Notes: generated from the sequence alone by a model not told the origin. Positions 217 to 16,905 are shown, counted from the first letter of the stretch. The stretch is 33,206 nt of DNA from Methylophaga thalassica (GCA_011052985.1 DRHY01000081.1:1-33206), one strand, 5' to 3'. Numbers and translations are program-made.

Positions 217-238
217 TGTAAATTTTCCTTACTAAAAA

Positions 239-787: not shown

Positions 788-790
788 GAC

Positions 791-1969
791 TTACTCACTA
801 TCCTGAGGCAGGGTAAGAATGTGCGGGTAGCGGCCGAGTCCTGCCGTTTCACCGATTTTCTTACCTGTCTTAGCATCAAAGGTGTACAGAGTTTGTTCAT
901 TGGCTGATACAGCAAACAGATAGGGTTTGTCATCCTGACTCACTGCAATCGAATCAATTTCGTGGTTCAGCTTAAACATACGCAGTCGTTTACCGCTATT
1001 GGCGTCAACAACAAACACGAAACGGCTTGGCGTTTTGTGGGTCCATTTGCCACGTTTGTCAGCCAGCAAATACAGTTCATTACTGTCATTGTGAACAGTG
1101 ACTAACTGCCAACCACCCGGACGCCATTTTTCTGCTTTCTCTTCTTTAGTGAAAACGTCGATAGGCTCCATGAACTCAGCACCGTCAGCAGTCAGTTTTG
1201 CCTGATAGATACGGCCTTCGTAGTCGGGCCATACCAGACGGTTAGTCACATCTGAGTAATAAGGTTCGTTCACCAGATAACTGTCTTCCGGATGGAAAAC
1301 TTTGCTATGTGTCTGAGTAGCGTTACCCTCATCGTCATAGTTGATTTTGAGCATTGAACCGTCACGGCAGTGCATATACACGTTCTGTTCAGGCGCCGGG
1401 AACAGGTGATAACAATCCGGAGTATCCATCATTTTGACGAACTTGTTTTCTTCCAAATCAACCAGACCGACTGCAGGTATGGGTGAGAACTGTTGGAATA
1501 GCATATGTTTGTCGTCGGTACTCAGCGTCGCCATGTGAGTAAAAATAGCGGTCAGGAAACGACCTTCAGGAATATCTATATCAGCAGTAACCTTGTGAGT
1601 CTGGGTATCAAAGACTTCAATATAGTCATCACGGTTACCGCGTGCGATCCGGTCATACCAGGTATTGGCAATGGCCATAAAGTTACCTTTATCACCAACC
1701 AAAACGTGAGGCAGTTTCCCGGCATCAGACATACCCAGAATTTTGTTGTTGTTACCGTCGATGGTGAACACCTGAGAGGTCATTTGAAAATGGCCCGGAT
1801 CGGTGACATAAACGCGTTTTGAGTCACTTTGTGGCGCCACTTCCAGCGTCATTTGTTCGATGGCAATATCCGCTAATGCTGGATAAGTTGTTGCCATCAG
1901 GGCTGCCGCCGCAATTCCGCCTACCATGCCTTGCTGTTTCAGCTTCGATTTAAGATTAAAAATAGTCAT
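791..1969 (-). CDS. mauB: MauB, methylamine dehydrogenase heavy (large) subunit precursor
   Basis: 392-residue precursor of the periplasmic quinoprotein methylamine dehydrogenase large subunit. With the small TTQ-bearing MauA subunit (not in this window) it oxidises methylamine to formaldehyde and ammonia. The N-terminus is a signal peptide: a basic stretch (KSKLKQQ), the hydrophobic core GGIAAAALMATTYP and a likely cleavage after PALA near residue 33. The mature part is a seven-bladed beta-propeller type protein; blade-like segments include HVLVGDKGNFMAIANTWYDR, YIEVFDTQTHKVTADIDIPE and a C-terminal YTFDAKTGKKIGE. Length matches the family. There is no twin arginine in the leader, so ordinary Sec export is likely for this subunit. 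Confidence 0.95.
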   Translation of the reverse strand: MTIFNLKSKLKQQGMVGGIAAAALMATTYPALADIAIEQMTLEVAPQSDSKRVYVTDPGHFQMTSQVFTIDGNNNKILGMSDAGKLPHVLVGDKGNFMAIANTWYDRIARGNRDDYIEVFDTQTHKVTADIDIPEGRFLTAIFTHMATLSTDDKHMLFQQFSPIPAVGLVDLEENKFVKMMDTPDCYHLFPAPEQNVYMHCRDGSMLKINYDDEGNATQTHSKVFHPEDSYLVNEPYYSDVTNRLVWPDYEGRIYQAKLTADGAEFMEPIDVFTKEEKAEKWRPGGWQLVTVHNDSNELYLLADKRGKWTHKTPSRFVFVVDANSGKRLRMFKLNHEIDSIAVSQDDKPYLFAVSANEQTLYTFDAKTGKKIGETAGLGRYPHILTLPQDSE

Positions 1970-2027
1970 ATCTCCTCCAAAATTATTTTTGGTTTATAGC
2001 GAGTTAAGGTTCTTATCTCGCTTATGT

Positions 2028-2879
2028 TTACAGCGTCAGCATGGTTAATGTTGCTGCGCCGATTGTCAGCAGAAGAAACCCATCCAGTTCAACTGCACGT
2101 TCCTGCCATTTCGCCAGCCAGGCCTGGACGGACTGGTTAGTGATTGGCAAAAAGTTCACCGCAACAGGCAGACAGCGCCCGATGTTAAAGATGGCGATGA
2201 TTGTGATTGCCGTAGTGACATCCGCACTCAGCAAAGCAGCACCCGTCACGATATAAAGGATCGGTGTCTGCACATATGTCAGATAGTTCATGCCCAGAGC
2301 GTAGCCATATAGCAGGCCAATCGTGGACGATCGGAAACGAAGACGTGCGTCGTGTGGAACCTGAGCTCGACGTTGTGGATAAGGCATTTTTAAAAAGCCT
2401 AATTGGTGTGTACCGTAGCCAACTGCGAGTATCGCCAGCCCCAAGACCATGTGGCTGAAAGCCAACTGTTCGAAAAGGAAAGCACCGACCAGACCAAGGG
2501 CTCCACCCAATACCAGAGCGCCAAAGGCATATCCGACTGCATGAGTGATAAAAGTTGGTGTCCAGCGAGCAACTGAAGCCAGTGAATATTTCCCTGCTGG
2601 TCGCAACAGACTAAGGCTGGAATATCCACATGGTGACCAGGTAGAAAGTAAACCACCAATAAAGGTCAATACCAGAAACATGCTGGTCAAAGCAGTAGAC
2701 ATTTGTGTACTAAACAGCGTGCCTAGCGTTACACCGACAGCAATTGCTGAAAACATAATGGCGAGTCGTGCACCAGATGATTTTGACTCAGAAAAACTTA
2801 TGGCATCAGGTACACATGCCACACTGTTCTCGATGATGGATGACTGACTATAATTGCCAGCTTCTATATCCGTTCTCAC
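2028..2879 (-). CDS. mauF: MauF, membrane protein for methylamine dehydrogenase biosynthesis
   Basis: 283-residue multi-spanning membrane protein, first gene of the mau operon as in other methylotrophs. MauF is essential for making active methylamine dehydrogenase, but its biochemical role is unknown; it is distantly like CcdA-type disulphide transporters. About seven hydrophobic segments are seen, with a short motif around TWSPCGYSSLSLLRPAGKY (about residues 80-98) holding the conserved cysteine. The start is GTG at 2877-2879, supported by the strong ribosome-binding sequence GAGGAGGAG just upstream; an ATG two bases upstream is out of frame and stops at once. A 58-base gap separates it from mauB. 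Confidence 0.88.
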   Translation of the reverse strand: MRTDIEAGNYSQSSIIENSVACVPDAISFSESKSSGARLAIMFSAIAVGVTLGTLFSTQMSTALTSMFLVLTFIGGLLSTWSPCGYSSLSLLRPAGKYSLASVARWTPTFITHAVGYAFGALVLGGALGLVGAFLFEQLAFSHMVLGLAILAVGYGTHQLGFLKMPYPQRRAQVPHDARLRFRSSTIGLLYGYALGMNYLTYVQTPILYIVTGAALLSADVTTAITIIAIFNIGRCLPVAVNFLPITNQSVQAWLAKWQERAVELDGFLLLTIGAATLTMLTL

Positions 2880-3462
2880 ATTCTCCTCCTCGGACCGACA
2901 GTCACTTTAGTTGTTGATGAAATAATTTCGTAACAACTATAGCCAGCCGAAAATGGGTGCCGTATCAAAAACTGGCATTGAAGGATGAGATTGACGGTAT
3001 AGGGTGTTTATGTTGCCGAATTTTGCTACTCATCAGATGCCTGAATGAGAATTTTGTATCGACCGCTCAGAAATCAGCACTCAAATCAGCGACATAGGCA
3101 CAGATAAACCACTAATTTGAACAACGCTAATGATCTGTATCATCACTGTTGTTCGGTGAAACTATTGCATCGACACAATTAACTGTTGATTAGATAAATG
3201 CTGGTGACACAAATGAGAGTGACTGAAGTGTCAGGTATGTAAGAGCAAAAATCGACTAAGAATTATTACTCATCATTTAATAAAGTTCACTACCCAGATA
3301 ATTGTGTTGCCGATTTCTACTATAGCTATCCAAGAAAAGACTTATTATGGTAGCTACCAGCTGTCAGCCTGATAAAAACAACAAGACAGGAATATCAGGG
3401 CTTCTCCAATAAAAACAATGAGCTCCGGTCAAATAGACAAACTGGTTGTGAGGGAGAGAAGA
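2880..3462. promoter_or_regulatory. Divergent regulatory region between mauF and the AraC-family gene
   Basis: A gene-free stretch of about 580 bases that must hold the mau promoter (minus) and the regulator promoter (plus). Seen in it: the 12-base perfect palindrome TGGTAGCTACCA at 3348-3359 and a separated inverted repeat TGACAC (3205-3210) / GTGTCA (3228-3233), both possible operators. I could not fix -35/-10 boxes. The unusual length suggests several control inputs, for example methylamine induction and nitrogen or carbon control, but that is inference. Confidence 0.5.
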
Positions 3463-4467
3463 ATGAATCAAGAAAAGATATGGTTAGATAACGGCTCAGA
3501 TAAATTAGAAATAAAAGCAGTACGCTCTAAGTTAACAGATGTGTTAGAGCAAGCGGCGGCATTGCCTATGTGGTCTCAGGATTACACTCAGTTAGATAAG
3601 GGTGGGTTTTCTGGCACAGTAACCAGTGTCGCTTCTCAGGGCGTGCAGATTTTTAGTGAGGCCATGAATCGTTCTGTGGATGAGCTTGCCAGCGCTCCAC
3701 CAGATAGTTATGTCATTGGTTTGCCCACCATTGTTGAGGGGGATGCTTTGTGGTGTGGCAGCAAGTTAACTAAAAACTCGCTTATCAGCTTGGATAAAAA
3801 TGACGAACTCTTATTTAAGACCTCGCATTCATCTGAAATCACCGCTGCTGTCATTTCTGAGCAACGACTTGAAGAATATGCAGAGCGAGTTGAAAAGGTC
3901 GATCTTCGTCCTCTTATAAGCAAGGTAAACCCTGTAGAGAAACTGCCACCTGACATACAAAGCCGCCTTTTGGCGATCTTGTACATTGGCACGGAACATT
4001 TGGCTAAAAATATTGAAGATGGTGTCAGTCATCCAAACAGTTGGCGCCACTTTGAAGACAGTGTATTCAGTTCATGCATGCAAGCGCTGACCGCGGCCAG
4101 CAATAATAACGACCGACATCATGAAAACCGGGTCCATCGTTATATCGTTAAAAGTGTGCGGGAAATGACGCTCACACAACATTGTGACCCGATCACTATT
4201 GGCGAGATTTGTACCACACTCAATATTAGTCGCCGGACATTGAACCATGCGTTTCAGCAAGTGCTTGGTATCACCCCGGTTGCCTATATGCGTAACATTC
4301 GCTTGCACAAGATCCGGGCCGAGCTTCAATATAAATCGAAGCAGCTTAACAGCATCGCCTGTGTGGCCTCACATTGGGGATTCTGGCACATGAGCTTGTT
4401 CGCCCGTTATTACCGTGAGCTATTCGGTGAGACTCCGAGTGAAACACTTGCACGTTCACACCACTGA
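3463..4467 (+). CDS. AraC-family transcriptional regulator
   Basis: 334 residues from ATG 3463, chosen because AGGGAGAGAAG lies right before it. An in-frame ATG at 3418 would add 15 residues but lacks a ribosome-binding site. The C-terminal 100 residues form the two helix-turn-helix AraC domain: ITIGEICTTLNISRRTLNHA, then the linking GITPVAYMRNIRLHKIR, then the second helix pair SIACVASHWGFWHMSLFARY and FGETPSE. The N-terminal part (WSQDYTQLDKGGFSG...) resembles the EutR-like sensory domain group. It is divergent from the mau operon and 66 bases upstream of tatA. Methylamine control is a plausible guess; known mau clusters use the LysR-type MauR, so this would be a different regulator. The target is not proven. 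Confidence 0.85.
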   Translation: MNQEKIWLDNGSDKLEIKAVRSKLTDVLEQAAALPMWSQDYTQLDKGGFSGTVTSVASQGVQIFSEAMNRSVDELASAPPDSYVIGLPTIVEGDALWCGSKLTKNSLISLDKNDELLFKTSHSSEITAAVISEQRLEEYAERVEKVDLRPLISKVNPVEKLPPDIQSRLLAILYIGTEHLAKNIEDGVSHPNSWRHFEDSVFSSCMQALTAASNNNDRHHENRVHRYIVKSVREMTLTQHCDPITIGEICTTLNISRRTLNHAFQQVLGITPVAYMRNIRLHKIRAELQYKSKQLNSIACVASHWGFWHMSLFARYYRELFGETPSETLARSHH

Positions 4468-4533
4468 GCCCCTCATGTCACAGGTCTATAACAGAGGTTC
4501 AGTCTTTCCACATCAAATCAAGGAGACACATTA

Positions 4534-4746
4534 ATGGGTTCATTTAGTATTTGGCACTGGCTGATTGTTCTGGTGGTAGTTGCCCTCGTTTTCGGCACCA
4601 AAAAACTACGTAATCTGGGCGGTGACTTAGGTGGCGCAGTGAAAGGCTTTAAACAAGCCATGAATGAAGAACAGTCAAGCGGCGTCATAGAACACGCAGT
4701 CAATGAAGCTGATAGCGTAAGCAGTAAAGCTACACAAAAAGAATAA
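4534..4746 (+). CDS. tatA: TatA, twin-arginine translocase pore-forming subunit
   Basis: 70-residue TatA/E protein: one N-terminal membrane helix ([16 protein letters not shown]), the conserved [21 protein letters not shown] hinge and amphipathic helix (FG at about residues 21-22), then a charged tail. TatA oligomerises to let folded proteins through the inner membrane. A good ribosome-binding site (AAGGAG) precedes the ATG. It is first of a compact tatA-tatB-tatC set. The set lies directly after the AraC-family regulator and next to the mau genes, so it may be transcribed with the regulator. Confidence 0.95.
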
Positions 4747-4758
4747 GCTGAGCTTGCT

Positions 4759-5136
4759 ATGTTTAATATTGCCTTCCCAGAACTCGTGGTGATTGTGCTG
4801 GTATCACTGATTTTCATCGGCCCAGATAAGCTTCCAAAGGTAGCGCAAACGCTTGGTATGATGATGGGACGTATGCAGCGTTTTATGAGTGCTGTTAAAG
4901 ACGACATCGACCAAGAGCTGAAAAATAACGATTTGCTTCGTTTGCAGGAAGAGCTAAAGCTACAACAAGAAGGCCTCAATGATGATCTTCGTAAAGGCAT
5001 GCAGCCGGTTGCTGACGTGATTCGTCGCCCTGAAACAACCGTTTCAGAAATACCTGATCCAGACTCCACTCAGCCAATTGTCATTGATACAGACCCACAA
5101 AAAACCACTGTCAAACCAGAAGGAATCTCTACTTGA
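4759..5136 (+). CDS. tatB: TatB, twin-arginine translocase subunit
   Basis: 125-residue TatB. It starts with MFNIAFPELVVIVLVSLIFI, a single membrane helix that contains the conserved glutamate, then the GPDKLPKVAQTLG hinge and a long amphipathic, coiled-coil-like helix rich in E, L and Q (about residues 45-80), then a low-complexity proline/threonine tail. TatB with TatC forms the receptor that binds RR signal peptides. It lies 12 bases after tatA, and its stop codon overlaps the start of tatC. Confidence 0.95.
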   Translation: MFNIAFPELVVIVLVSLIFIGPDKLPKVAQTLGMMMGRMQRFMSAVKDDIDQELKNNDLLRLQEELKLQQEGLNDDLRKGMQPVADVIRRPETTVSEIPDPDSTQPIVIDTDPQKTTVKPEGIST

Positions 5137-5873
5137 GTAGCAAAGAAGAACTTTTCAGCCACTTACTGGAGCTTCGTAACCGGTTATTGAAGATCGTGGC
5201 AGGCATCTTAGTCGTCATGCTTGCTTTAGTCCCTTTCGCTAACGAGATTTATCAGTTCCTGGCGACCCCCTTGCTGCAAGCATTGCCAGAGGGAGGTCAG
5301 ATGATTGCCACCGAGGTGACCACACCTTTCTTTGTTCCACTTAAAGTAGTGATGCTGGCCGCCTTTATTATTTCATCACCCTATACGCTCTACCAAATCT
5401 GGGCTTTCATCGCCCCCGGCCTCTATGCCAATGAGCGCCACCTTGTTGCTCCTTTGGTTATCACCAGTGTTTTCCTGTTCCTTTGCGGGATGGCGTTTGC
5501 CTACTTTCTTGTTTTTCCTGTCGTGTTTGGTTTTATTACCAGCACCGCACCAGAGGGTGTTGCGGTGATGACCGATATTGGTAAATATCTAGATTTTGCA
5601 ATTAGCCTTTTCATCGCCTTCAGCTTGGCCTTTGAAACTCCCGTGGCAGTAGTGCTTATGGTCGCGGCGGGGATGGTGAGCGTCGTCGCACTGAAACAAG
5701 CTCGTGCATACGTCATTGTTGGCGCGTTCGTTGTTGGCGCAATTATTACTCCGCCTGACATTATTTCTCAATTCATGCTGGCTATACCAATGTGGGTGTT
5801 GTACGAAATTGGCATATTAGTCGCAAGTGTTATGCAGCAAAAAAAGCATCATCAGTATGAGCATCTACCCTGA
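5133..5873 (+). CDS. tatC: TatC, twin-arginine signal-peptide receptor
   Basis: 246-residue six-helix membrane protein. The N-terminus holds the conserved LFSHLLELRNRLLK signal-peptide-binding block; the cytoplasmic loop YQIWAFIAPGLYANERH carries the conserved F and E of the second binding site. The start is TTG at 5133-5135, overlapping the tatB stop (TTGA), which implies translational coupling and gives the family's usual N-terminus. The set is complete and looks functional. The MauA precursor in known methylotrophs carries a twin-arginine leader, so neighbouring mau genes give these genes an obvious client; this link is inferred. Confidence 0.96.
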   Translation: MSSKEELFSHLLELRNRLLKIVAGILVVMLALVPFANEIYQFLATPLLQALPEGGQMIATEVTTPFFVPLKVVMLAAFIISSPYTLYQIWAFIAPGLYANERHLVAPLVITSVFLFLCGMAFAYFLVFPVVFGFITSTAPEGVAVMTDIGKYLDFAISLFIAFSLAFETPVAVVLMVAAGMVSVVALKQARAYVIVGAFVVGAIITPPDIISQFMLAIPMWVLYEIGILVASVMQQKKHHQYEHLP

Positions 5874-6264
5874 CTATCATCAACTAGCCCTCATTAAAAG
5901 ACAGGCTTGATCAGTTTGAACGATATATCCAGCATATTCTGATGATGCATAGTGTGCTGGCTATATGGCCTGACCGTGAGCGAGCGCCAAAATGATGAGT
6001 GAGTTTATAACTCTGTGAATCGCTGCCTAGCTGGCAGTGAGGGCATGATGTGGAGTGGTTTTGTATTCATTGTGTGGTGCATTAAGTCGAGGGTGACAGT
6101 ATCAAAATGGTTGAGTTGCGTTAGTAATGAGAACGAGTCTTTGAGTTTCTTATAGTGAAACGATGATGATTGCGCTGCAACAAAAAGTATGACAGATTTG
6201 CCCCAATTATCATCAGGCTCATGCATCAAATAGTGTTTGGTGACCGTCATTTTGGGAGTAAAGA
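5874..6264. other. Intergenic region between tatC and the chemoreceptor gene
   Basis: No convincing gene is seen. An imperfect inverted repeat (about 5922-5935 with 5952-5965, around CCAGCA/TGCTGG) could form a 14-base stem with two mismatches after tatC, but no T-run follows. The ribosome-binding site GGGAG of the chemoreceptor is at about 6252-6256. An 81-codon open frame on the minus strand lacks a ribosome-binding site and known motifs. Confidence 0.4.
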
Positions 6265-8370
6265 ATGCATTTTTCCATTCAACAACGTTTCAGTATCTGG
6301 GCTGGACTGGGCCTTCTTAGCGTTGTGTTAATGGCTGTCTTAGTAGGGCTTTGGCAGTTTGACAAGATCAAGCAGACTCTTTCCAGTCAGAGCTATGACG
6401 TCACTCGTAGCCAAGTTGAAGATTACCTTCGGGTGCTGGCCAGCGATACGTCAGTGGAATTATCTATGCCGCTACAGTCTGCCATGCATGCAGTACAAGC
6501 TACTGCCTCAGCAATTGAGGCTGTTGTTGATACAAAAAGCAATCTAGATAAGCGGGATCTGGCCATTCGTATGTTAGAACAAACGTTGGCGGATCATCCC
6601 GATTTTCTCGCAACTTATGTGGCTTTTGAACCCGATGCGATTGATGGCAACGATGAGCTTGCAAAACAGGCTCGCGGCAGTGATGTCGCGGGACGATTCG
6701 TGCCCTATGTGACCAGAGATAATAACGGTTTTCAGGTTGCTTTGCTTGAAGGACTGGAAGATACCAGGCTTGATCAGAATGGTATCAGGGTGGGGGAATA
6801 TTACCTGTGCTCCAAAGAGAGTGGCGAAAGCTGCGTTATTGATCCATATCTCTATCCAGTAGAAGGTGAACAGGTCTTGCTTAGCAGTCTGGTGGCCCCT
6901 ATCAAACAGAAGGGACAGTTTATTGGTATCGCTGGTGTGGATATTTCGGTCACTTTTCTGCAGTCAGTGATTAGTGATGTTGGTGCCGGTCTCTACAATG
7001 GTCAGGGACGTACTTTGCTGGTCAGTCCGAACGGTATTATTTCCGGTCATAGCCAGAACTTAGCGTTGATTGGCCAGAATCTCAATGTGCTGGAAACGTC
7101 GATAAGTAAAAACCTTAAAGAAGCCGCAGCCAGTGGTGAGACCAGGATCATTAATTCCAAACAGCGATTTATTGTTCTGAAGCCGTTTCATTTACCGGGC
7201 AATCAGCAACGTTGGGTCGCATACATAGAAGTGCCTGAAGATATAGTGATGGCAGATGTGGCCATGCAAAAACAATTTCTTGAGGCTGCTCAGCGGCGGT
7301 TTATAACTACAACCACAGTACTTGGGGTATTTCTGTCAGTACTTGGTGTGGTTGCGATATGGCTTGTCGCTCGCAAAAGCATCCGACCTCTGACTGAAAT
7401 GACCGAGCTGGTGGCTTCGATTGCCGAGGGGGAGGGCGATCTGACGCAGAGGCTGAATATTAGTTACCGTGATGAGACTGGCAAACTGTCTAGCCTGCTC
7501 AATACCTTTATTAAAAAGCTGCATAACTTGGTTCAGCAATTGCTGCCGGTAGCCAGTGACGTCAGTTCCCTATCAACCGACGGGCGAAAGATCAGTGTGG
7601 AAACCAGTGTTCAGATGTTGGAGCTGGAGAGTTTGATCGAGGATATGGTGCTGGCCATGAGTGAAATGGCTGCGTCAGCAGAGCAAATTGCCACCAATGC
7701 TGAGCGAACATCGCAGTTTGTTCAGAACGCCAATGATGCAGCAACTGAGGGAGCTGCTGTGGTGCAGAAAAAAGGCACATCGATTAACCGTGTCAGTAAG
7801 TCAGTTTACGAGTCCGAAGCCGCCCTGCAGGAAGTAGAAAAAAACAGCGATGGCATAGTGCAGATTCTGTCGCTTATAGAGGAGATGGCCCATGAGACCA
7901 ATAATTTAGCAGTTAACGTTGCCAACAATGCCGCGACTGATAGCAAAAATGAAGCCGGTTTTGCATCAGCGGCAGCGCAGATTAGTATATTGTCTAGCAA
8001 GACCCAACAAGCCACTGTTGATATTCATCACATGATTACCACTGTGCAGCAAAGTAATCAGCAGGTGTTAGCTATGATTCGGCTCAGCGGTCAACAGGTT
8101 TCAGAAACTGTGGGGCTGGCACAACAGGCAGAAGCGATGTTGAATGACATTAACCAAGCCATTGAAGAAGTCACTGATATGACCTTGCAGATTGCATCAG
8201 CTACGGAACAACAAAGTGCGGTGTGTGAGGAAGTAAGTCATAACCTGTCGGAAGTTTCACGTCTGGTACATCAGACCTCAAAAGGGGCGCAGGAACTTCG
8301 CAGTGTCGGCAATGAACTGGACCAGACAGCCATCAGGCTGCAAGAAAAACTGTCTCTGTTTAAGGTTTGA
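6265..8370 (+). CDS. Methyl-accepting chemotaxis-type receptor with degenerate signalling tip
   Basis: 701-residue membrane receptor. Order: cytoplasmic start, TM1 (about residues 12-33), a large periplasmic double-Cache-like sensor (about 45-335; includes GIAGVDISVTFLQSVISDVG and the preceding YLYPVEGEQVLLSSLVAP), TM2 (about 345-367), HAMP (about 368-420; SIAEGEGDLTQRLNISYRDE) and a long helical signalling domain. The signalling hairpin tip should read close to IAFQTNLLALNAAVEAARAG. Here it reads MAHETNNLAVNVANNAATDS (about residues 541-560): the contact glutamate, arginine and following residues are replaced by N, T and K. No C-terminal CheR-binding pentapeptide is present. The frame is open throughout, so it is expressed-looking but probably does not couple normally to CheA/CheW. 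The ligand is unknown. Confidence 0.9.
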   Translation: MHFSIQQRFSIWAGLGLLSVVLMAVLVGLWQFDKIKQTLSSQSYDVTRSQVEDYLRVLASDTSVELSMPLQSAMHAVQATASAIEAVVDTKSNLDKRDLAIRMLEQTLADHPDFLATYVAFEPDAIDGNDELAKQARGSDVAGRFVPYVTRDNNGFQVALLEGLEDTRLDQNGIRVGEYYLCSKESGESCVIDPYLYPVEGEQVLLSSLVAPIKQKGQFIGIAGVDISVTFLQSVISDVGAGLYNGQGRTLLVSPNGIISGHSQNLALIGQNLNVLETSISKNLKEAAASGETRIINSKQRFIVLKPFHLPGNQQRWVAYIEVPEDIVMADVAMQKQFLEAAQRRFITTTTVLGVFLSVLGVVAIWLVARKSIRPLTEMTELVASIAEGEGDLTQRLNISYRDETGKLSSLLNTFIKKLHNLVQQLLPVASDVSSLSTDGRKISVETSVQMLELESLIEDMVLAMSEMAASAEQIATNAERTSQFVQNANDAATEGAAVVQKKGTSINRVSKSVYESEAALQEVEKNSDGIVQILSLIEEMAHETNNLAVNVANNAATDSKNEAGFASAAAQISILSSKTQQATVDIHHMITTVQQSNQQVLAMIRLSGQQVSETVGLAQQAEAMLNDINQAIEEVTDMTLQIASATEQQSAVCEEVSHNLSEVSRLVHQTSKGAQELRSVGNELDQTAIRLQEKLSLFKV

Positions 8371-8785
8371 GTGTTAGCGGTGTTGAGACGTTTTTGGCAC
8401 ACCGACTCATAGCCAGGCTGACATTTCCTCGGCTTTTAACTGATATGAAGTGCTTAGTGGTAAGTATTCTGGAACGCTCTGAACCTTTGACACCTATTGG
8501 ATATAGAGCTCCTGAGCCTCCACTTGACAGGGAGATTGAAAAATTAATGTAAATAAGTAGGCCAACAGGTTAATTACATAACGCCTGTAACGCCAAGCGC
8601 TCCAGATTTATTCAGGAAACAGTGCCACGTCCCTGTGACATCTGCATTAATGGGCGTTCAAACCAAGCATAATGTCAGCTGTTAGAGGTATGAACCGGTC
8701 TTCCTGTACGATACCACCTAGCAAATTAGCCTAAAAAGTTGGTAAGAATCACCACCATTATTTCATCTGAATGCTTTTCTAATGA
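8371..8785. other. Intergenic region between convergent chemoreceptor and rnk genes
   Basis: About 415 bases with no supported gene. A 61-codon frame beginning TTG at 8367 overlaps the receptor stop but has no ribosome-binding site and no recognisable motif. I see no clear intrinsic terminator for either flanking gene. Confidence 0.35.
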
Positions 8786-9199
8786 CTACCTGTGATAGTC
8801 CCCGGATCGTTCAGGTTGATAAAGAATATTTTCAATTCTGACTTTGATGTTCTTTCCACCTGGGTTTGGCCAATAAATCTCATCACCCTGTTTCATTCCC
8901 AAAAGAGCTGTTCCAATCGGTGAGAGTATCGATAAGGTAGAGCCATCTTCTCTGACATCTTTGGGGTACACCAGAGTCACATAAAACGGAGCCTCAGAAG
9001 ATGATAAAGATAGCTGGACCGTTGAATTCATGGAAACAACGTTTTCAGGAACATGCCGTGAATCCACAACCGTAGCTCTTTCTAACTCTTCTTCTAAGTT
9101 GAACTTAGAGAGAGTGTTAAAAGCTGAAAATGAGCCGAGCAGGGCTTCCAGCCTCTCTAGGTCTAGTGATGAAATAATTATATCGGGCTGAATTGTCAC
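8786..9199 (-). CDS. rnk: Rnk, nucleoside diphosphate kinase regulator / GreA-like protein
   Basis: 137 residues from GTG at 9197-9199, the same size as E. coli Rnk (136). An N-terminal coiled coil-like part (DIIISSLDLERLEALLGSF) is followed by the GreA/GreB C-terminal fold: MNSTVQLSL, YVTLVYPKD, LSILSPIGTALLGMKQGDEI and the ending VRIENILYQPERSGD, a typical Rnk block. Rnk binds RNA polymerase and affects NTP pools. The GTG start is preferred to an ATG 51 bases upstream because GAGGTT is well placed before it and because the longer frame would run through a terminator hairpin. Confidence 0.9.
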   Translation of the reverse strand: MTIQPDIIISSLDLERLEALLGSFSAFNTLSKFNLEEELERATVVDSRHVPENVVSMNSTVQLSLSSSEAPFYVTLVYPKDVREDGSTLSILSPIGTALLGMKQGDEIYWPNPGGKNIKVRIENILYQPERSGDYHR

Positions 9200-9220
9200 G
9201 CTAATAACCTCAACATAAAT

Positions 9221-9255
9221 AAAAAACCAGAATGCAGATGTGGTCTGCATTCTGG
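9221..9255 (-). terminator. Rho-independent terminator of the cytochrome b561/SrpA unit
   Basis: A perfect 12-base stem (CCAGAATGCAGA at 9227-9238 with TCTGCATTCTGG at 9244-9255) and a 5-base loop. Read on the minus strand it is followed by six T residues (9226-9221). It lies between the cytochrome b561 gene and rnk, both on the minus strand. It should separate the two units, or act as an attenuator for read-through into rnk. Confidence 0.85.
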
Positions 9256-9433
9256 CTAAAACAGAAGGAATAAAAATAGGTCTGAATAGACCCGCGGTTA
9301 TGATGCCTAATTCTCAGTTAATAGTTAAGCGCGAATGATGCAAGTTAGGCATCTATTGCTCATTTTTACTATTGAGTCTACAGGGTACAAAACACAAACT
9401 GGAGTTAAGCCAAACTCATCATTCCGGACTCTG

Positions 9434-9973
9434 CTAGAACCACATTGAGTCAAAAATACTGTCGCGTCGAATCATGGCGTGATACAGAGCAGCAGAGATA
9501 TGCATGAGTATAAGCAAAATAAGGATCACCGCCGTTATGCCGTGTATTTCTCTGAATAGACCATAGAGTCCAAGATCGATTGTTGTAATGGATGGAAGCA
9601 TTAACGTATCAAAGATGTAAATAGGCCGTCCTGCGAAGTTTTGCATGAGAAAACCAGATACTGGCATCAGAATCATAGCCATGTACATCAAAATGTGAGT
9701 GAGCTTGGCAATAAAGCGTTGTAAGGATGGAAGCTCATTATCTAGCGAAGGTGAGACAGTTCTCAAACGGACTAACAGCCGCGCCAAAACAGCGATGAAA
9801 GCAATCACCCCTAAGTTTTTATGAATACTCAATAATGTAGGCTGCCATGGCTCTAAGCTTCTGATCATAGATAGACCAGCAAAAATCAGAGAAAAAATAA
9901 GCAATGCCATCCCCCAGTGAATTACTTTCATGACTAGATTGTATGACTTGATTGATGTATTTGGAGAGTTCAT
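9434..9973 (-). CDS. Cytochrome b561 family membrane protein
   Basis: 179-residue four-helix membrane protein of the bacterial cytochrome b561 (YodB/CybB-like) family. Candidate haem-ligand histidines are visible: VIHWGMALLIF near residue 19, SIHKNLGVIAF in helix 2, KLTHILMYMAM and IHGITAVILI / LMHISAALYHAM near the end. It passes electrons between quinol and periplasmic partners. It starts 5 bases after the stop of the SrpA-type peroxidase gene, a pairing seen in many proteobacteria, so it probably supplies electrons to that enzyme; this partnership is inferred. Confidence 0.9.
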   Translation of the reverse strand: MNSPNTSIKSYNLVMKVIHWGMALLIFSLIFAGLSMIRSLEPWQPTLLSIHKNLGVIAFIAVLARLLVRLRTVSPSLDNELPSLQRFIAKLTHILMYMAMILMPVSGFLMQNFAGRPIYIFDTLMLPSITTIDLGLYGLFREIHGITAVILILLILMHISAALYHAMIRRDSIFDSMWF

Positions 9974-9978
9974 AGGTG

Positions 9979-11013
9979 TTACTCAGACAGTCTTAATAAA
10001 TGCTCTTTTGCACGCCTTCTGTATGACTCTGCATAAGCCGATGAGCGTGCTCCAAGGATCTTATCTTGACTAGCCTCAATCCCGGTCGGAAGAACCAATG
10101 GATCAAAATTGATTTCATTGCATATGCTGTTTTTCTGCGGCGTCGCATCTGTGATGAGTAGTTGACCAGCTATGACTTCTCTGCGAGAAGAGGGCCAGGC
10201 TTGTGTTGGATCAGTCACATTGTCTTCGGCTGTAGCAAAAGTGAAAATCAGATCAAATTTTACATTTCCTGCTTTGAGACGATTAAAAAACTCATCTTGA
10301 AGTGCATCATTATTTGATGTGTCTAAATCGGCTGCTGCTAGTGCATCAATTGGAGGGCTTACTCTCCATCGGACAGCTTGTTTGTTACCTTTATTATTGA
10401 TCAGATAGAAAGCATTGATACTGTGATAAGTCTCTTCTGCAAAGCTGTTCTTAGGCGAATATTCAGATGCCCATGTCCTGAAAGCTTTACTTTCAGGATG
10501 CTCATCGAAGAAGTCTCTTATTTTGCTTGGATCACGTTCATTGGTTGTTGGGTCAGGAGCGAGAGCAAGGAGTTGCTGGTAAAAATCATACGGGTTTCTA
10601 ACAGCCATGACAGGAGGTGTGTTCATCGCTGTTCGCCAGACTTCATTTTTAGATGAAAGACTCAGTGCCAGGCTTCTTACAGGAGCTTTCAAGTCTGGTG
10701 CGGTGGGATTATTCCCAGCAATGGAGATACGTCCGGTAAAAGGCGTGTTTTTTCTGGAGAAAAAATAAGCTGAAGTGTATTGCGCGAGGTTGCCGTTAGA
10801 CTGCAATACGCCGCCTATACAAAAACCCTTTGCGTGAGCACGCCGAAACCCTTCGTAAACGAGTTTTCCCTGCTGAAGGTCAACAAAATCCTGAGCCGTG
10901 ATTTTGTTACCGCTACCAAACTTGGCGAACATAAAAGCCGCCATTAATGAAGCAACAATAACCGCAATCAATAGTAGCGGTTTAAGTGGCCAAGCCAGCG
11001 TTTGTTTGTTCAA
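9979..11013 (-). CDS. srpA: SrpA-type catalase-related haem peroxidase
   Basis: 344 residues with an N-terminal membrane anchor or signal segment (LLLIAVIVASLMAAFMFAKF, about residues 13-32), so the enzyme faces the periplasm. The minimal catalase fold follows: the distal histidine lies in RRAHAKGFC (about residue 60), NNPTAPDLKAPVRSLALSL matches the catalase core, and the C-terminal GARSSAYAESYRRRA carries the proximal Arg/Tyr haem-ligand motif. Length fits the small catalase-related peroxidases rather than true catalases. It likely removes hydrogen peroxide or organic peroxides with electrons from the downstream cytochrome b561. Periplasmic methylamine and methanol oxidation would be one source of peroxide, though that is speculation. 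Confidence 0.88.
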   Translation of the reverse strand: MNKQTLAWPLKPLLLIAVIVASLMAAFMFAKFGSGNKITAQDFVDLQQGKLVYEGFRRAHAKGFCIGGVLQSNGNLAQYTSAYFFSRKNTPFTGRISIAGNNPTAPDLKAPVRSLALSLSSKNEVWRTAMNTPPVMAVRNPYDFYQQLLALAPDPTTNERDPSKIRDFFDEHPESKAFRTWASEYSPKNSFAEETYHSINAFYLINNKGNKQAVRWRVSPPIDALAAADLDTSNNDALQDEFFNRLKAGNVKFDLIFTFATAEDNVTDPTQAWPSSRREVIAGQLLITDATPQKNSICNEINFDPLVLPTGIEASQDKILGARSSAYAESYRRRAKEHLLRLSE

Positions 11014-11260
11014 TGTTGATGCCTTGATTGATTATTGAGAGACAGTTGACTATTTCTTTAGTTCAGAGGTTTTAAGATGCTGCTTGAATTACTTTCTGTG
11101 GTTTCTATTTCTCATGAGCCTGATGCTTACGGTCTTGCCGAAATTAGATACTGTCATCTCGACATCATCAGTATATTTATTCTTTCACAACGCAAATATC
11201 GGGTCTCACTCTGCTTACAGTAGGAGGCCTAAATCATTCAATCACGGATATGAGGAATTA

Positions 11261-11980
11261 ATGAAAACTACGAAATACCTAATAGCCTTTTCGGTCATGC
11301 TAGCATCCTCGTCGGCATTTGCATGGCAATCTGAAGATGATCAGCATGCAACCAGCGCATCAGTAGCGTTGGGAAGTGATTATGTCTGGCGTGGCTATTC
11401 TCAAACGGATAATGAACCTGCCTTATCAGGAAGCTTTGACTATCAACACGCCAGTGGAGTGTATGCCGGGGCTTGGGCATCCAACGTCGATTTTGAAATC
11501 AATAATGATCAAGCTCACATCGAGATGGATGTTTACGCTGGCGTTGCTGGAGAATTCAGTGACACAGATATTTCATATGATCTTGGTGTTCTCCGTTACG
11601 TATACCCAGGGACTGACGGTGGTAATTGGAACGAAATTTATGCCTCATTGAGTTATAGCTTTTTCAGTCTTGGTGTTGCTCACTCTGATGACGTTTATAA
11701 CTCGAATGATAGAGGCACTTACTATTCAATTGGTTTTGAATACCCCATGCTGGCAGGTATTAATTTTGAAACGACTTTCGGTTACTACAATTATGACAGA
11801 GATGTTTTTGGTAGAGGAAATCCTGATTCGGCCAAAGATATGAACATTGGTATCAGTAAAGATCTTGCTGGATTGAATATTTCACTCAATTACATCAATT
11901 CTGATGATGATGCAGGAGAGATCTACGGCGATAGCATCACTGATGGACGCGTTGTATTTGCTGTTTCTAAATCAATGTAA
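11261..11980 (+). CDS. TorF family outer-membrane beta-barrel (putative porin)
   Basis: 239 residues from ATG 11261, supported by TGAGGAATTA upstream and by a signal peptide that begins there (KTTKYLIAFSVMLASSSAFA, cleavage near residue 22). The frame stays open for 59 codons further upstream, but that part is not protein-like. The mature protein is a run of amphipathic strands rich in Y, G and D, starting ASVALGSDYVWRGYSQTDNE, the signature of the TIGR02001/Gcw_chp TorF family, and ending in a VVFAVSKSM strand. These are small 12-strand or so barrels often tied to transport of nitrogen compounds; the substrate here is unknown. It is divergent from the peroxidase gene and followed by its own terminator. 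Confidence 0.88.
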   Translation: MKTTKYLIAFSVMLASSSAFAWQSEDDQHATSASVALGSDYVWRGYSQTDNEPALSGSFDYQHASGVYAGAWASNVDFEINNDQAHIEMDVYAGVAGEFSDTDISYDLGVLRYVYPGTDGGNWNEIYASLSYSFFSLGVAHSDDVYNSNDRGTYYSIGFEYPMLAGINFETTFGYYNYDRDVFGRGNPDSAKDMNIGISKDLAGLNISLNYINSDDDAGEIYGDSITDGRVVFAVSKSM

Positions 11981-12056
11981 AAAGATTAAAAGTAAATCAA
12001 CCAGTGGTACAAATTTGATTTGCTTCTGATTCCCTATTCTCTCGTTGGGAAACTGG

Positions 12057-12116
12057 GGAGAGTTTCGGCTATTAACACTTACCCCTGTCGATAGCTGTGA
12101 CTCTCCTCTTTTTTTT
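12057..12116 (+). terminator. Long-stem intrinsic terminator after the TorF-family gene
   Basis: GGAGAGT (12057-12063) pairs with ACTCTCC (12100-12106), and inside it CGGCTAT pairs with ATAGCTG (7 pairs, one G-U). A run of eight T residues follows at 12109-12116. It ends 136 bases after the TorF stop. Confidence 0.85.
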
Positions 12117-12405
12117 ACCTTAAAAAAAACACCGGTTCTAGCCTAATGTTTTCCTGCTTAAGATTTTGTTTTTTGCCCGAATAATCACCGGGCTGGGTTC
12201 ATACCGTACTTCTTAAAAGGTAACGGAAGTGCATTTAATCTCGAGACATCAACAATATGCCCCTGGATGGGGAGCAGATTGCTAATCCTCGATATTGTTA
12301 TATGAGAGTGTGCAGTGTAAAATTCTAAGCCTTAGAAAAGTGGTTTTTCGGAAAACACTATTCCAAAAATTATCAATGGCACAAACTTATTGATAACTAT
12401 ACAGT
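12117..12405. other. Upstream region of the tRNA-Pro gene
   Basis: No protein gene is supported. An inverted repeat AACAATAT (12251-12258) / ATATTGTT (12292-12299) encloses a CCCC...GGGG hairpin and could be a small structured RNA or an operator. The tRNA promoter must lie in the last 60 bases, but I could not fix the boxes. Confidence 0.3.
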
Positions 12406-12482
12406 CGGGGCATGGCGCAGCCTGGTAGCGCACTTGCATGGGGTGCAAGGGGTCGAAGGTTCAAATCCTTCTGTCCCGACCA
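12406..12482 (+). tRNA. tRNA-Pro (anticodon GGG)
   Basis: 77 bases including an encoded CCA. The acceptor stem pairs CGGGGCA with TGTCCCG (one G-U). The anticodon stem-loop is CTTGC-ATGGGGT-GCAAG with GGG at the wobble-to-third positions, reading CCC/CCU proline codons. The T arm holds GGTTCAAATCC. Its 3' part is repeated at 15530-15563, marking it as the insertion target of the adjacent island. Confidence 0.97.
12449..12482 (+). repeat. attL-like direct repeat (3' end of tRNA-Pro)
   Basis: The last 34 bases of the tRNA, from GGGGT to the CCA. It matches 15530-15563 at 32 of 34 positions; the final 23 bases (12460-12482) are identical. This is the usual core of a tyrosine-recombinase attachment site at a tRNA 3' end. 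Confidence 0.85.
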
Positions 12483-12787
12483 ATTTTCTCTCTTTATTCT
12501 CTAATGTAAAAATCGTGTAAAAGCCTATTTTTACTGGCTTTATGAGTTTTCTTATTACACCATTTTAATTTCTAAATGCTTCAGGAATGGCTGTTTTTGG
12601 TCTTTTTACAGCCATTTTACAGCCACACCGAAACTTCAATAATTCCTGTTGGAAACTGCACGAAGTATCAGCACTAAACTTTAGTGAATTATTCAGATGA
12701 ATCTGAATAAATAAATTTGGGTGCGCGGTGTTAATGACCTGATGATATAGTCCTGTGAATGGAAAAAATCAGATAAGGAGCGTTTAG
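12483..12787. other. Left end of the tRNA-Pro island (non-coding)
   Basis: Contains no gene. It holds inverted and direct copies of an ACAGCC-type motif: TTTTTACAGCCA (12603-12614), TTTTACAGCCA (12615-12625), GGCTGT (12589-12594, inverted) and a variant TTTTTACTGGC (12528-12538). The promoter of the ATPase gene must lie in its last 100 bases; TAAGGAGCG at about 12774-12782 is the ribosome-binding site. Confidence 0.5.
12603..12614 (+). repeat. Island-end repeat TTTTTACAGCCA, left copy
   Basis: 12-base word identical to 15456-15467 near the right end. A second, overlapping-type copy TTTTACAGCCA follows directly at 12615-12625. Spacing and position are like tyrosine-recombinase arm sites; that function is inferred. 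Confidence 0.55.
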
Positions 12788-15403
12788 GTGTCTATCCTGA
12801 AAGAAATTCAGAATTGGTCAAAAGATCTTCCTGAGTGGCAACAAGATGCTATTGCCAAACTCTACGTCAATCGTAGCTTGTCTAATGCTCAGCTCAACCA
12901 TCTTTATGCACTTGCAAAAGCAGAAGTAGGTATTCCTGATGAGGAGGGGCGGGTAGCAACCAAGTTTCAGGATAAAGAAATTGCTGCAGAGCCGAATCCG
13001 ACAAGGCTTGTAAAACTCGAGGCAGTGAGAGACTTGGTTAATGTCAACGCCCTAGCTGAAGGTATACGTTTACCCATTGCTCTAGATGGGCTGACAGTCA
13101 TTTATGGTGAAAATGGTACAGGAAAGTCCGGCTACTCACGTGTATTCAAGCATGCCTGTAGAGCAAGGGACACTAGTGAACCGATTCTGCCAAATGCAAA
13201 GTTAGAACCAAAAGAAACCGGCGTTGCTAAGGCTATTTTTGAGACGAATATTGATGGCCAGTCATTAGAATTAGCTTGGAGTGCTGATAAGATCTCACCA
13301 GAAGAGTTATCAGATATTTCCATTTTTGATACACATTGCGCTCGTGCTTATGTTGATAACCATGGTGACTATGCATACGTGCCATATGGACTCGATATTC
13401 TTGAAGGGCTAGCATCAATATGTGTAGAACTAAAGAGTAGGGCTACCAAAGAAAAAACTAATAATGCACCGTCAGATAATGCCTACTCGTCACTGACGTC
13501 TGAGCAGACAGCTGTAGCTGCCGCACTTAAAAACATAGTCTTAAACAAGACTAAAGCAGAAGACATCGAGGCTTTAGCCATACTCTCCGAACAGGAGCAG
13601 AAAAGGTTAAATTTGCTCAATAAAACACTCGCTGAGGCTGACCCTAAGCAAAAAGCACAAGCAATCAGGCATAAAGCCAGCCGTTTTGAGAGCCTAAAGT
13701 CTCGTATGGCAGATGCTGTAAAAGTAATAGACGAGGAGAAGCTCTCTGAGCTTCAGAGGCTATTGCATAAATATAATAGTGCAAAGAAAGCAGCAGAACT
13801 CGCTGCTACAGAGTTTAAAGATACTCCGGGTCAACTTCCGGGAACTGGAAGTGATGAGTGGAAGACCCTGTTCGATGCTGCTAGAGAGTTTGCAAAGCTT
13901 TCGCATGGTGAGCATAAATTTCCTCATTTACCCGAAAATTCAAAGTGCCCACTGTGCCAAAATGAGCTTGGTGATTTAGGCGCCAGTAACTTAGTTAGAT
14001 TTGATATTTTTATCGGGCAAGAAGTGGAAAAAGCTGCATTAGATGCACGTAAAGATGCTGCAAGAGCTTATAAATTGATCAGAGATGCTAGTCTTGAATT
14101 GAATCTTGAGGATGCGTTGATTCAAGAGTTGCGAGAGGTTAATCCTGAACTCGCTGAAACATGTTTGTCTATGCAGTCTGAAATTGTACTTCGTCGTAGC
14201 AAAATCCTTGAAGCGGCTGAGGATAAACTTAAATGGTCAGATGTTCCAAAACTTACTCATGACCCTAGAGAAAAATTGACGGAAAATATTGAAAGCTTAT
14301 TAATGCAGGCAAAAGCACTAGAAGCTACTGCCGATGAAAAAACAAAAACTGCAATGGTGCTAGAGTTAGCCGAATTAGATGCTAGAAATAAGCTTTTCGA
14401 AGTCAAAGAAGCTGTTTTGGAAGCCATAAAAAAGCATCAGTATTGCCAAAAACTTCAGAAATGTATCGAGAGTATGGATACTGCTCGTATTTCAAGAAAG
14501 TCTACTCATCTCTCTCAAACAATTGCTAGTCAAGAATTAGCTGATGCTCTGAATGAGGAGCTCAAGCAACTAAAAGTTCATGAACTCAAGGTGGTAATGA
14601 AGCCTGAATCTTCAAGGGGACGAACAAAGTTTAAACTTGTTTTAGAAGTGCCAGGAGGGAAGGCACCGTCATCCATACTAAGTGAAGGTGAGCAACGAGC
14701 GATAGCAATTGCTTCATTTCTAGCTGAAGTTAAGCTTGCCAAAGGTTTAGGTGGTGTGGTGTTTGATGATCCTGTCTCATCTTTAGATCATCGTCGTAGA
14801 TGGGAAGTAGCCCAACGTCTAGCTATAGAAGCCAAAGCTCGCCAAGTAATTATATTTACACATGACATCTACTTTCTTTGCATCATTGAACAAAAAGCAG
14901 CAGAGATCGGAACTAATATTTGTAAAAATTATATTCGAAGAACTCCTCAAGGGTTTGGGGTTCACTCTGATGAGTTGCCCTTTGATGTGGTTGGCACAAA
15001 AGAGCGTGTAAAGAGGTTACGTAAAAGGTTAGCCGATGTTCAAGCTGCTTATTTAGCAGGTGATGAAGAATCACATCGTTTCATGACATCAAGGTGCTAT
15101 GGCGACTTAAGACTAGCTTGGGAGAGGAGCATAGAAGAGGTGCTTTTTAATAAAGTCATTGAGCGATTTGGTGAAGGCGTCTCTACCGTTAGATTGAGAA
15201 GAGTAACCGTGACAGATGATGACTATGCAGAAATCGATGCAGGAATGACTAAAAGTTCTAAATTCGAGCATGATGCAGCCATGCGAGTAGGGCGACTACC
15301 AACTCCTTCGCCAGAGGAACTAAGTGACGACATAGAAAATCTGGAAGCGTTTCGTGTGAGAGTTAATAAGAGAGGAGAGCAGGTTGCAGATGCTAGAGGT
15401 TAA
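12788..15403 (+). CDS. SMC/ABC-type ATPase with zinc hook, RloC-like putative anticodon nuclease
   Basis: 871 residues from GTG 12788 (TAAGGAG upstream). An ABC-type ATPase split by a long helical insertion: Walker A GENGTGKS (107-114), coiled coil about 215-600 with a Rad50-like hook CPLC (387-390) near its middle, signature LSEGEQ (631-636), Walker B VVFDDP (Asp 660-661), D-loop SSLDH and H-loop FTHD (His 692). The 180-residue C-terminal region contains RLAWE (Arg 775, Glu 779) and a later EHDAA (His 828). PrrC/RloC anticodon nucleases use an Arg-x3-Glu pair plus a downstream His, and RloC also has a zinc hook, so an RloC-like tRNA-cutting defence protein is my best reading. It could instead be another AAA_13 defence ATPase. 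It is the only gene in the island. Confidence 0.75.
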   Translation: MSILKEIQNWSKDLPEWQQDAIAKLYVNRSLSNAQLNHLYALAKAEVGIPDEEGRVATKFQDKEIAAEPNPTRLVKLEAVRDLVNVNALAEGIRLPIALDGLTVIYGENGTGKSGYSRVFKHACRARDTSEPILPNAKLEPKETGVAKAIFETNIDGQSLELAWSADKISPEELSDISIFDTHCARAYVDNHGDYAYVPYGLDILEGLASICVELKSRATKEKTNNAPSDNAYSSLTSEQTAVAAALKNIVLNKTKAEDIEALAILSEQEQKRLNLLNKTLAEADPKQKAQAIRHKASRFESLKSRMADAVKVIDEEKLSELQRLLHKYNSAKKAAELAATEFKDTPGQLPGTGSDEWKTLFDAAREFAKLSHGEHKFPHLPENSKCPLCQNELGDLGASNLVRFDIFIGQEVEKAALDARKDAARAYKLIRDASLELNLEDALIQELREVNPELAETCLSMQSEIVLRRSKILEAAEDKLKWSDVPKLTHDPREKLTENIESLLMQAKALEATADEKTKTAMVLELAELDARNKLFEVKEAVLEAIKKHQYCQKLQKCIESMDTARISRKSTHLSQTIASQELADALNEELKQLKVHELKVVMKPESSRGRTKFKLVLEVPGGKAPSSILSEGEQRAIAIASFLAEVKLAKGLGGVVFDDPVSSLDHRRRWEVAQRLAIEAKARQVIIFTHDIYFLCIIEQKAAEIGTNICKNYIRRTPQGFGVHSDELPFDVVGTKERVKRLRKRLADVQAAYLAGDEESHRFMTSRCYGDLRLAWERSIEEVLFNKVIERFGEGVSTVRLRRVTVTDDDYAEIDAGMTKSSKFEHDAAMRVGRLPTPSPEELSDDIENLEAFRVRVNKRGEQVADARG

Positions 15404-15455
15404 TTTTTCAAAACGTTTAAAGATGAAGGGGCAGGTAGGATTTTTGTAGGTTTTG

Positions 15456-15467
15456 TTTTTACAGCCA
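15456..15467 (+). repeat. Island-end repeat TTTTTACAGCCA, right copy
   Basis: Identical to 12603-12614, followed by a partial copy AACAGCCA (15471-15478). It lies 63 bases before the right core repeat. A weak hairpin CCAGG/CCTGG (15465-15487) followed by GTTTTGTTTT overlaps it and may terminate the ATPase transcript. Confidence 0.55.
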
Positions 15468-15529
15468 GGAAACAGCCATAAACCTGGGTTTTGTTTTGTA
15501 AGTTAATGATATGTATAACAATTGTTTTT

Positions 15530-15563
15530 GGGGTTGAAGTTTCAAATCCTTCTGTCCCGACCA
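15530..15563 (+). repeat. attR-like direct repeat (partial tRNA-Pro copy)
   Basis: Copy of the tRNA-Pro 3' end (12449-12482) with two mismatches at 15535 and 15540; the last 23 bases including CCA are identical. It is not a tRNA gene, since nothing upstream folds as the 5' half. Confidence 0.85.
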
Positions 15564-15594: not shown

Positions 15595-16905
15595 TCAAGA
15601 ACCACTCTTCCTTAATTCATTGATAATCCGATGACGCTCATCCTCTTGGTAAAAACTTGGATCATCAAATAAATCACCCTGTGATTGATTGAATATCATG
15701 CTCAAAGCTTGTGCACTGGTCTGAACCATTGGTTCAAAGTGTGCATTCTCTCCACTCACAAGATCGACAACCTTATGACGTCGGTAAATCGTATAACAAC
15801 CTAAAATAGCCAATACACTACCAATATAAATGGGTAATCCGTAAGAGCCAATTAAAGACATTAAGCCACCTGATAAAACGGGAGCAAAGGCACAACCTGC
15901 GCCGTGCAGTACGAGCATGTCTGATGAGCCCGATACAATTTCATCAGGATGTAATTGATCGATCAATTGAGCGACAGCCAATGGATAGATCGAAAATGAC
16001 AGGCCTCCCCATAAGAAGTAGATAGCTAATAAAGTGAGTTTTGATGGTGCAATGGCCATTAGCAGGGCGAGCAGTGCGGCTAACATAACGACCCATGTGA
16101 TGATTTTAGGTCTATCATGTTTGTCAGAATAACGGCCAATTGGGATTTGTAATGCGGCACCACCTAGAATAGTAATACTCATTATTAATGCAATATCACT
16201 TATGCCGTATCCAACTTGTGTAGCGTAGATTGGTGTCATTGCCCAGAATGCCCCCATTGCTAAACCTGATAGTGTAGATCCGACAACCGATAGAGGTGCT
16301 ATTGATAAAAGATGCTTAAGACTACTCTTAGGTTTTTCAGAACTGATATTGGGTTGATTTCTTCTCGTTAGGCTCAGTGGTAGGATGGCCCAGCTGATGA
16401 CGATAGATACAATGGCAAATAGCAGAAAGTTATCAGGTGAGTCTAAGTGGAGAAGTTGTTGTGCAATGGCCAATGCTCCAAGATTTACCACCATGTAAAA
16501 TCCAAAAACTCGACCGCGCTCGTGTTGTGCTGCCTGACTATTTAACCAGCTTTCAATAACAGTCATTAATGTGATGTAGGCTAACCCATAAAAAAAACGT
16601 AACCCAGCCCAGACCCAAGCATCAATTATCATGATGTGCATTAGAGTCGTCGTGGCGCAGACCGAGGCACAAAAAGCGAACGTTCTGATATGACCCATTC
16701 GCCTAATGAGGCGACCACTAACCCACGTACCACAAATAAAGCCGATGAAATAGGCTGACATAATGGCACCCATTACGATACTGGAAAATCCCTCTGAGGT
16801 ACCACGCAGTGTTAATAAGGTGCTGATTAAGCCATTACCCAATAGAAGAAGTGCAACACTCCATAGGATAGATTGGATCGGTTTAAGTAATGCTAAAGAC
16901 TGCAT
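15595..16905 (-). CDS. Major facilitator superfamily transporter (YcaD-like)
   Basis: 436 residues, 12 predicted membrane helices, ATG start at 16905 (TAAGGAAAT upstream). The loop between helices 2 and 3 holds the MFS signature in the form GRLIRRMGHIRTF; the repeat in the second half reads GRYSDKHDRPKII. The sequence VIESWLNSQ after helix 4 and the overall pattern match the YcaD/COG0477 subgroup of small-molecule exporters. A 60-residue soluble tail follows the last helix. The substrate cannot be told. It lies just outside the tRNA-Pro island, ending 32 bases from the right repeat, so it is probably original chromosome. Confidence 0.88.
   Translation of the reverse strand: MQSLALLKPIQSILWSVALLLLGNGLISTLLTLRGTSEGFSSIVMGAIMSAYFIGFICGTWVSGRLIRRMGHIRTFAFCASVCATTTLMHIMIIDAWVWAGLRFFYGLAYITLMTVIESWLNSQAAQHERGRVFGFYMVVNLGALAIAQQLLHLDSPDNFLLFAIVSIVISWAILPLSLTRRNQPNISSEKPKSSLKHLLSIAPLSVVGSTLSGLAMGAFWAMTPIYATQVGYGISDIALIMSITILGGAALQIPIGRYSDKHDRPKIITWVVMLAALLALLMAIAPSKLTLLAIYFLWGGLSFSIYPLAVAQLIDQLHPDEIVSGSSDMLVLHGAGCAFAPVLSGGLMSLIGSYGLPIYIGSVLAILGCYTIYRRHKVVDLVSGENAHFEPMVQTSAQALSMIFNQSQGDLFDDPSFYQEDERHRIINELRKSGS

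Follow-up and report, generated by a model that had tools for sequence, protein, structure and literature searches.

A phage-att-bounded cassette with a single RloC-like gene in tRNA-Pro(GGG) of Methylophaga thalassica

The tRNA-Pro(GGG) locus and its cargo gene

The window analysed here is the whole of contig C81, a stretch of 33,206 nucleotides of Methylophaga thalassica whose own assembly (G000) comprises 2.86 Mb in 353 contigs and is 93% complete. Gene content, with a methylamine dehydrogenase cluster and ectoine genes, likewise points to Methylophaga or a near relative. ARAGORN finds one tRNA gene in it, tRNA-Pro(GGG) (Table 1). The 23 nucleotides of its 3' end, TTCAAATCCTTCTGTCCCGACCA, occur exactly twice in the window, from 12460 and from 15541 and both on the plus strand, with 3081 bp between the end of the tRNA and the end of the copy. 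Once every other ORF of at least 45 aa had been listed, that at 12788-15403 was left as the sole credible gene between the two. A family-level search of the whole own genome gave no integrase on C81 or on the contig C244 discussed below, and 16 Phage_integrase matches elsewhere. The sequence-only reading of this locus, which had described a copy of the tRNA 3' end about 3.08 kb downstream (23 nt exact, 34 nt near-exact), a zinc-hook ATPase as the only gene between the repeats and an island with no visible integrase, is borne out on all these points. Positions 12483-15563 together with the tRNA 3' end are an attL-cargo-attR cassette.

Table 1. Positions of the features discussed, in the window (first eight rows) and in three other genomes of the genus
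Feature	Position	Strand	Remarks
Mau block	1..12405		Right part of a larger insertion, most readily taken as a separate one: mau cluster, Tat, chemotaxis receptor, catalase, porin; outside the cassette
tRNA-Pro(GGG)	12406..12482	+	Whole; 3' end forms the attL core; ARAGORN
attL core	12460..12482	+	23 nt; identical to the attR core and the phage attP core
Left arm-type sites	12587..12625	+	Inverted TGGCTGT 12588-12594; direct ACAGCCA 12608-12614, 12619-12625
RloC-like zinc-hook ATPase	12788..15403	+	871 aa; predicted C-terminal nuclease triad; sole cargo gene
Right arm-type sites	15458..15478	+	ACAGCCA 15461-15467, 15472-15478
attR	15530..15563	+	Copy of tRNA-Pro nt 44-77; 32/34 identical, exact over 15541-15563
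MFS transporter	15595..16905	-	Ancestral right neighbour; flank, outside the island; adjoins the tRNA in G003, G004, G020, G021
G015 cassette, tRNA-Pro, 5.4 kb	L075:12473-17985		RT_UG5-nitrilase, 1098 aa
G016 cassette, tRNA-Pro, 2.7 kb	L076:3866-6692		Mrr_cat nuclease
G017 cassette, tRNA-Leu(CAA), 2.4 kb	L359:7962-10458 (G017:C1:79962-82458)		Exact 23-nt 3' copy; no integrase

A search for the tRNA-Pro gene covered 24 genomes of the genus, and its neighbours were placed by tblastn. In four congeners (G003, G004, G020 and G021) the order is ppsA, tRNA-Pro, MFS transporter and aldo-keto reductase, which is the empty site joined to the MFS side that had been predicted. The tRNA and the MFS gene are ~30-42 bp apart in these genomes, and the same short spacing follows the 3' copy in the window. 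The cassette is a clean insertion in tRNA-Pro(GGG) that leaves the tRNA whole. Its RloC-like gene is present in one of the 24 congeneric genomes and missing from the 23 others. Across the order, the tRNA-Pro 3'-end sequence is confined to congeners and three other genomes, and none of the latter three has a second copy of it.

The left flank of the tRNA differs from the ancestral one. In the own genome, ppsA lies on C244 (L057:3044-8162) and is followed by nucleotides 1-43 only of tRNA-Pro and then by mau genes. The window begins inside mauD, and comparison with congeners places C244 next to it across a gap of ~86 bp, so a block of ~17.6 kb separates ppsA from the complete tRNA-Pro. At either end of this block stands a 43-nt repeat of the tRNA 5' half, and the block has no integrase; a comparison of its ends for arm sites gave a few shared 10-mers, within the range of shuffles. 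The most plausible reading is that of a distinct insertion that has another repeat, and the tRNA-Pro of the window is thus not in its ancestral left context but has a second, larger insertion on its left. An integrase just outside, with a matching repeat that explains a larger island, had been named beforehand as an objection to a small one; the mau block is a larger island in that place and answers to this in part, yet it has its own, different repeat (nt 1-43), is integrase-free and leaves the 3' repeat unexplained. The mau cluster of G016 and G018 has another location, downstream of tRNA-Pro(TGG)-tRNA-Arg.

The cargo gene has a GTG start preceded by AAGGAG. Its product has matches above the cut-off to the Pfam families AAA_13 and AAA_21 and a weaker one, below the cut-off, to SMC_N; it contains a CPLC zinc-hook motif and is assigned by PADLOC to the candidate defence family PDC-S06. 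Across 19 aligned sequences, from Pseudomonas to Bordetella, C387-x-x-C390, all of R775-X3-E779-X48-H828 and the ATPase motif residues are invariant. RloC is an ABC ATPase with a zinc-hook CxxC and a C-terminal R-X3-E-X36-52-H, and some of its genes start with GTG (PMC2610378). The cargo protein shares the ATPase, the hook, the triad and the GTG start, and since the hook and the triad are the sequence hallmarks of RloC, it fits this zinc-hook anticodon nuclease; by family resemblance it would cleave tRNA. What had been called a putative defence gene has therefore gained a candidate family and the features of RloC, its activity being a predicted one.

In a structural model of the protein (mean pLDDT 79), long helices flank the zinc hook on both sides, and residues 74-739 match the heads of SMC/Rad50 proteins (5h68_B, Z 19.7, rmsd 4.7, 277 aligned; 4ncj_A, Z 18.5, rmsd 4.6, 257 aligned). 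The C-terminal part of the model is of low confidence, and these matches, restricted to residues 74-739, do not extend to the C-terminal domain, where RloC would have a HEPN fold. A sequence search of solved structures gave no match, nor did a search for a phage-borne copy of the gene in an annotated phage collection. Plasmid relatives exist, the best (66%) in Methylomonas. Promoter-like sequences were no more frequent than in shuffles, and a terminator scan found none on the strand of the gene.

Attachment-type sites and a P2-like phage

In genome G022 the same tRNA-Pro is occupied by a 38-kb element with a 26-nt repeat, the right flank of which is nearly identical to the post-tRNA sequence of the empty-site genome G021. 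The element is a P2-like prophage, with a Phage_cap_P2 major capsid protein, a terminase with a gpP-like domain and a minor tail protein. Its tyrosine integrase gene lies directly after tRNA-Pro, and the protein is ~43% identical to the integrases of enterobacterial temperate phages, including Peduovirus records. An identical integrase protein is encoded by an 18-kb viral contig, IMGVR_UViG_3300009194_000065 (L267, L268). The attP of this contig is intact and reads TTTACAGCCATTTTGCAGCCA, ~60 bp, AGGTTCAAATCCTTCTGTCCCGACCA, ~130 bp, TGGCTGT...ACAGCCATTTTACAGCCA and then the integrase gene.

The same elements are found around the cargo gene. The pair ACAGCCA-N4-ACAGCCA occurs twice in the window, once at each end of the island (12608-12625 and 15461-15478). 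The G022 prophage differs by one base from the window sequence to the left of the cargo gene, AATGGCTGTTTTTGGTCTTTTTACAGCCATTTTACAGCCAC. To the right, ACAGCCA recurs at an 11-bp period ~60 bp before the core, in the window and in the prophage alike, and on both sides the arms keep similar distances from the core. When the whole island was compared with the phage contig by BLAST, the att modules were the only significant matches: the left arm matches the attP side adjoining the integrase over 41 bp (E 1.2e-13), and the next match is 22 bp inside the arms (E 0.003). The best ungapped score is 38 on the left, against a maximum of 14 in 200 shuffles, whereas on the right it is 12, barely above the shuffle maximum of 11, so the case for the right arm rests on the spacing and position of the repeats and not on length. 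Judged by sequence, both ends of the island bear the core and the arm-type sites of one tyrosine integrase, that of the P2-like phage. Near-identical arms amid unrelated neighbouring sequence are what would be expected of sites still in use.

Integrase-free cassettes elsewhere in the genus

The genus contains three further integrase-free cassettes with paired arms, of 2.4-5.4 kb, in G015, G016 and G017 (Table 1). As had been anticipated, other cargo is thus found between repeats of tRNA-Pro, in G015, in G016 and in the G022 prophage. The cassette of G015 encodes a DRT-type reverse transcriptase-nitrilase (PADLOC RT_UG5-nitrilase, E 9.5e-303) and, on the opposite strand, a protein of 402 aa with no Pfam match. 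Repeats of ACGCGGAAACA are present at both of its ends, and their doubled form has no other match in the 24 genomes. The cassette of G016 codes for two unknown proteins of 164 and 185 aa beside the nuclease, and its arms, GGTGCCA-N4-AGTGCCA, are present at both ends. This sequence has three exact matches in the 24 genomes, two of them at the G016 island ends and one in G017. It was from this last match that the G017 island was reached, which has a second GTGCCA pair at its opposite end and holds three small genes of no clear family, a candidate for an unknown defence system.

In viral contigs the GGTGCCA arm-pair form, sought with a looser arm pattern, has nine matches, eight of them beside a Phage_integrase gene; the cassettes of G016 and G017 thus share an arm type that adjoins integrases in phages. 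With strict patterns, neither a phage integrase for the G015 arms nor the G016 arms joined to the tRNA-Pro core had a match in viral contigs. One genus therefore harbours four cassettes built alike, each with a different cargo and with three types of arm among them, and three of the four carry a known or predicted defence gene. In G019 (L079:11948-12527), tRNA-Pro is followed 0.46 kb downstream by a 46-nt copy of its 3' end, with similar sequence after both copies and with no gene or arms seen in the interval; this is possibly an emptied or duplicated site.

Possible movement and relation to known elements

The reading that best accounts for the locus, and a fairly probable one, is that of a cassette bounded by phage att sites and moved in trans by the phage integrase, in the manner of a cis-mobilizable element (CIME). 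The integrase and excisionase of the P2-like phage would act on the att sites of the cassette when the phage infects or resides in the cell. The cassette would be excised as a circle, whose attP copies that of the phage, and the circle would insert at the tRNA-Pro of the same or a new cell. Co-transduction, transformation and tandem insertion beside the phage are candidate routes between cells. The cassette probably originated from a phage or island stripped of all but its att ends and one defence gene, and it may have been kept because RloC guards the host, cutting tRNA when infection damages DNA or disturbs restriction. With arm and core sites of a phage integrase at the island ends, the trans helper becomes concrete and is no longer hypothetical. 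The mobilisation in trans proposed in the sequence-only reading is strengthened by this match, but its resident helper was not found, as the own genome (93% complete) yielded no G022-like integrase; the helper phage is known from G022 and one viral contig. No free-circle or phage form of the cassette was present in viral contigs under a strict right-end pattern, a looser one matching too much to be of use, and no excisionase binding site was identified.

Alternatively, the cassette could be an inert deletion remnant, left when a P2-like prophage, or an island akin to it, that carried the RloC gene close to one end lost the integrase and its other genes, the att sites being relics. Elements of this kind usually arise by the loss of mobility genes (PMC5704250), and a remnant would sit well with the missing helper integrase in the own genome and with the single occurrence of the RloC cassette with ACAGCCA arms in the 24 congeneric genomes and the viral contigs. 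However, no traces of phage genes or of other phage DNA are left, yet the core and both sets of arms are kept, and the same precise deletion would have had to occur in each of four like cassettes, whose arms are of three types. An inert remnant is therefore unlikely, although it deserves serious consideration. It is distinctly improbable that the cassette spreads only by homologous recombination of its flanks, in transduction or transformation, the att sites recording no more than the first insertion: throughout the genus tRNA-Pro and the sequences beside it are conserved and offer homology on both sides of a cassette that lacks an autonomous mobility gene, but this explains neither why arms are retained beside differing sequence nor why the design turns up again in other species.

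There is very little to be said for a single larger island that includes the mau block and in which the present repeat is internal. The 17.6-kb block does lie directly to the left and is likewise integrase-free, and its left junction ends at nucleotide 43 of the tRNA where the attR copy begins at nucleotide 44, the outer pieces making up one tRNA; the repeats nevertheless differ (nt 1-43 vs nt 44-77, exact over 55-77), and the 3-kb part is bounded on either side by matching arms of its own. Least credible of all is a true phage satellite packaged by a P2-like helper, which would share att sites with the phage as the cassette does but of which there is no regulation, replication or capsid-size gene and no common phage DNA outside att. 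Phage satellites (PICI, PICMI, P4) have their own integrase and usually genes for regulation or replication; the cassette has one gene. No candidate for a shared packaging site was seen in a DNA comparison with the G022 phage, which gave no significant match outside att. Without any indication of packaging, the name of minimal satellite given to the island in the sequence-only reading is unsupported, and since the att modules are the sole significant DNA in common with the P2-like phage, a cassette using a borrowed integrase is better supported than a phage satellite.

For many small islands in tRNA genes it is not apparent how they move. As the arm sites at the ends of this island match one phage integrase, the missing enzyme could be named from sequence alone; if the mobile-cassette reading is right, the helper of an integrase-free island can be traced through its arm sites, ~200 bp of sequence from phage ends suffices to mobilise a defence gene, and phages help to spread genes directed against them or their rivals. 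A more tentative proposal is that of a general class of non-autonomous elements, each with a single defence system, bounded by phage arms and cores and moving by the borrowed integrases of temperate phages. Were there such a class, its members would be to phage integrases what MITEs are to transposases, and phage integrases would spread anti-phage genes.

Elements that resemble the cassette in part have been described. CIMEs of ICESt1-type islands retain attL and attR and are mobilised by the recombinase of a related element, through site-specific accretion with it (PMC5704250). Similarly, the cassette keeps the attL and attR of a known recombinase and has no integration or transfer genes; however, its matching autonomous element is a P2-like phage and not conjugative, and its cargo is one defence gene. 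As the matching element is a phage and there is no ICE origin, in contrast to the ICE or IME origin of CIMEs, the cassette is CIME-like in its working but is not itself a CIME. The microcin H47 island of E. coli is integrase-free, and its excision and integration have been shown with functions supplied by the host genome (PMC3191183). It is small like the cassette, but at 12.6 kb it has long imperfect repeats and antibacterial-peptide cargo, and its helper is not linked by arm sites to a named phage. The CR2-sul2 unit is likewise att-bounded and moved by the integrase of another element, GIsul2 (PMC9376610), although here a resistance gene is carried downstream of guaA and the integrase belongs to a genomic island, not to a phage. 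Defence genes also occupy a hotspot in P2-like phages and P4-like satellites (PMC9122126). The P2-type background and anti-phage cargo are comparable there, but whole phages or satellites are involved, whereas the cassette consists of att ends and one gene. In the literature searched, which took in no preprints and few subscription journals, three points appear to be new: island ends that match a single phage integrase, a content cut down to one defence gene, and a design that recurs with other arms and other cargo.

Genomic islands in tRNA genes that do bear an integrase carry it inside, usually adjoining the tRNA; C81 has no Phage_integrase match. In Ewingella (L022:4369-14741), an RloC relative lies between two tRNA-Leu copies together with a reverse transcriptase and a 684-aa ORF. 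This ORF reads like a tyrosine integrase, and the locus would then be an integrase-bearing counterpart.
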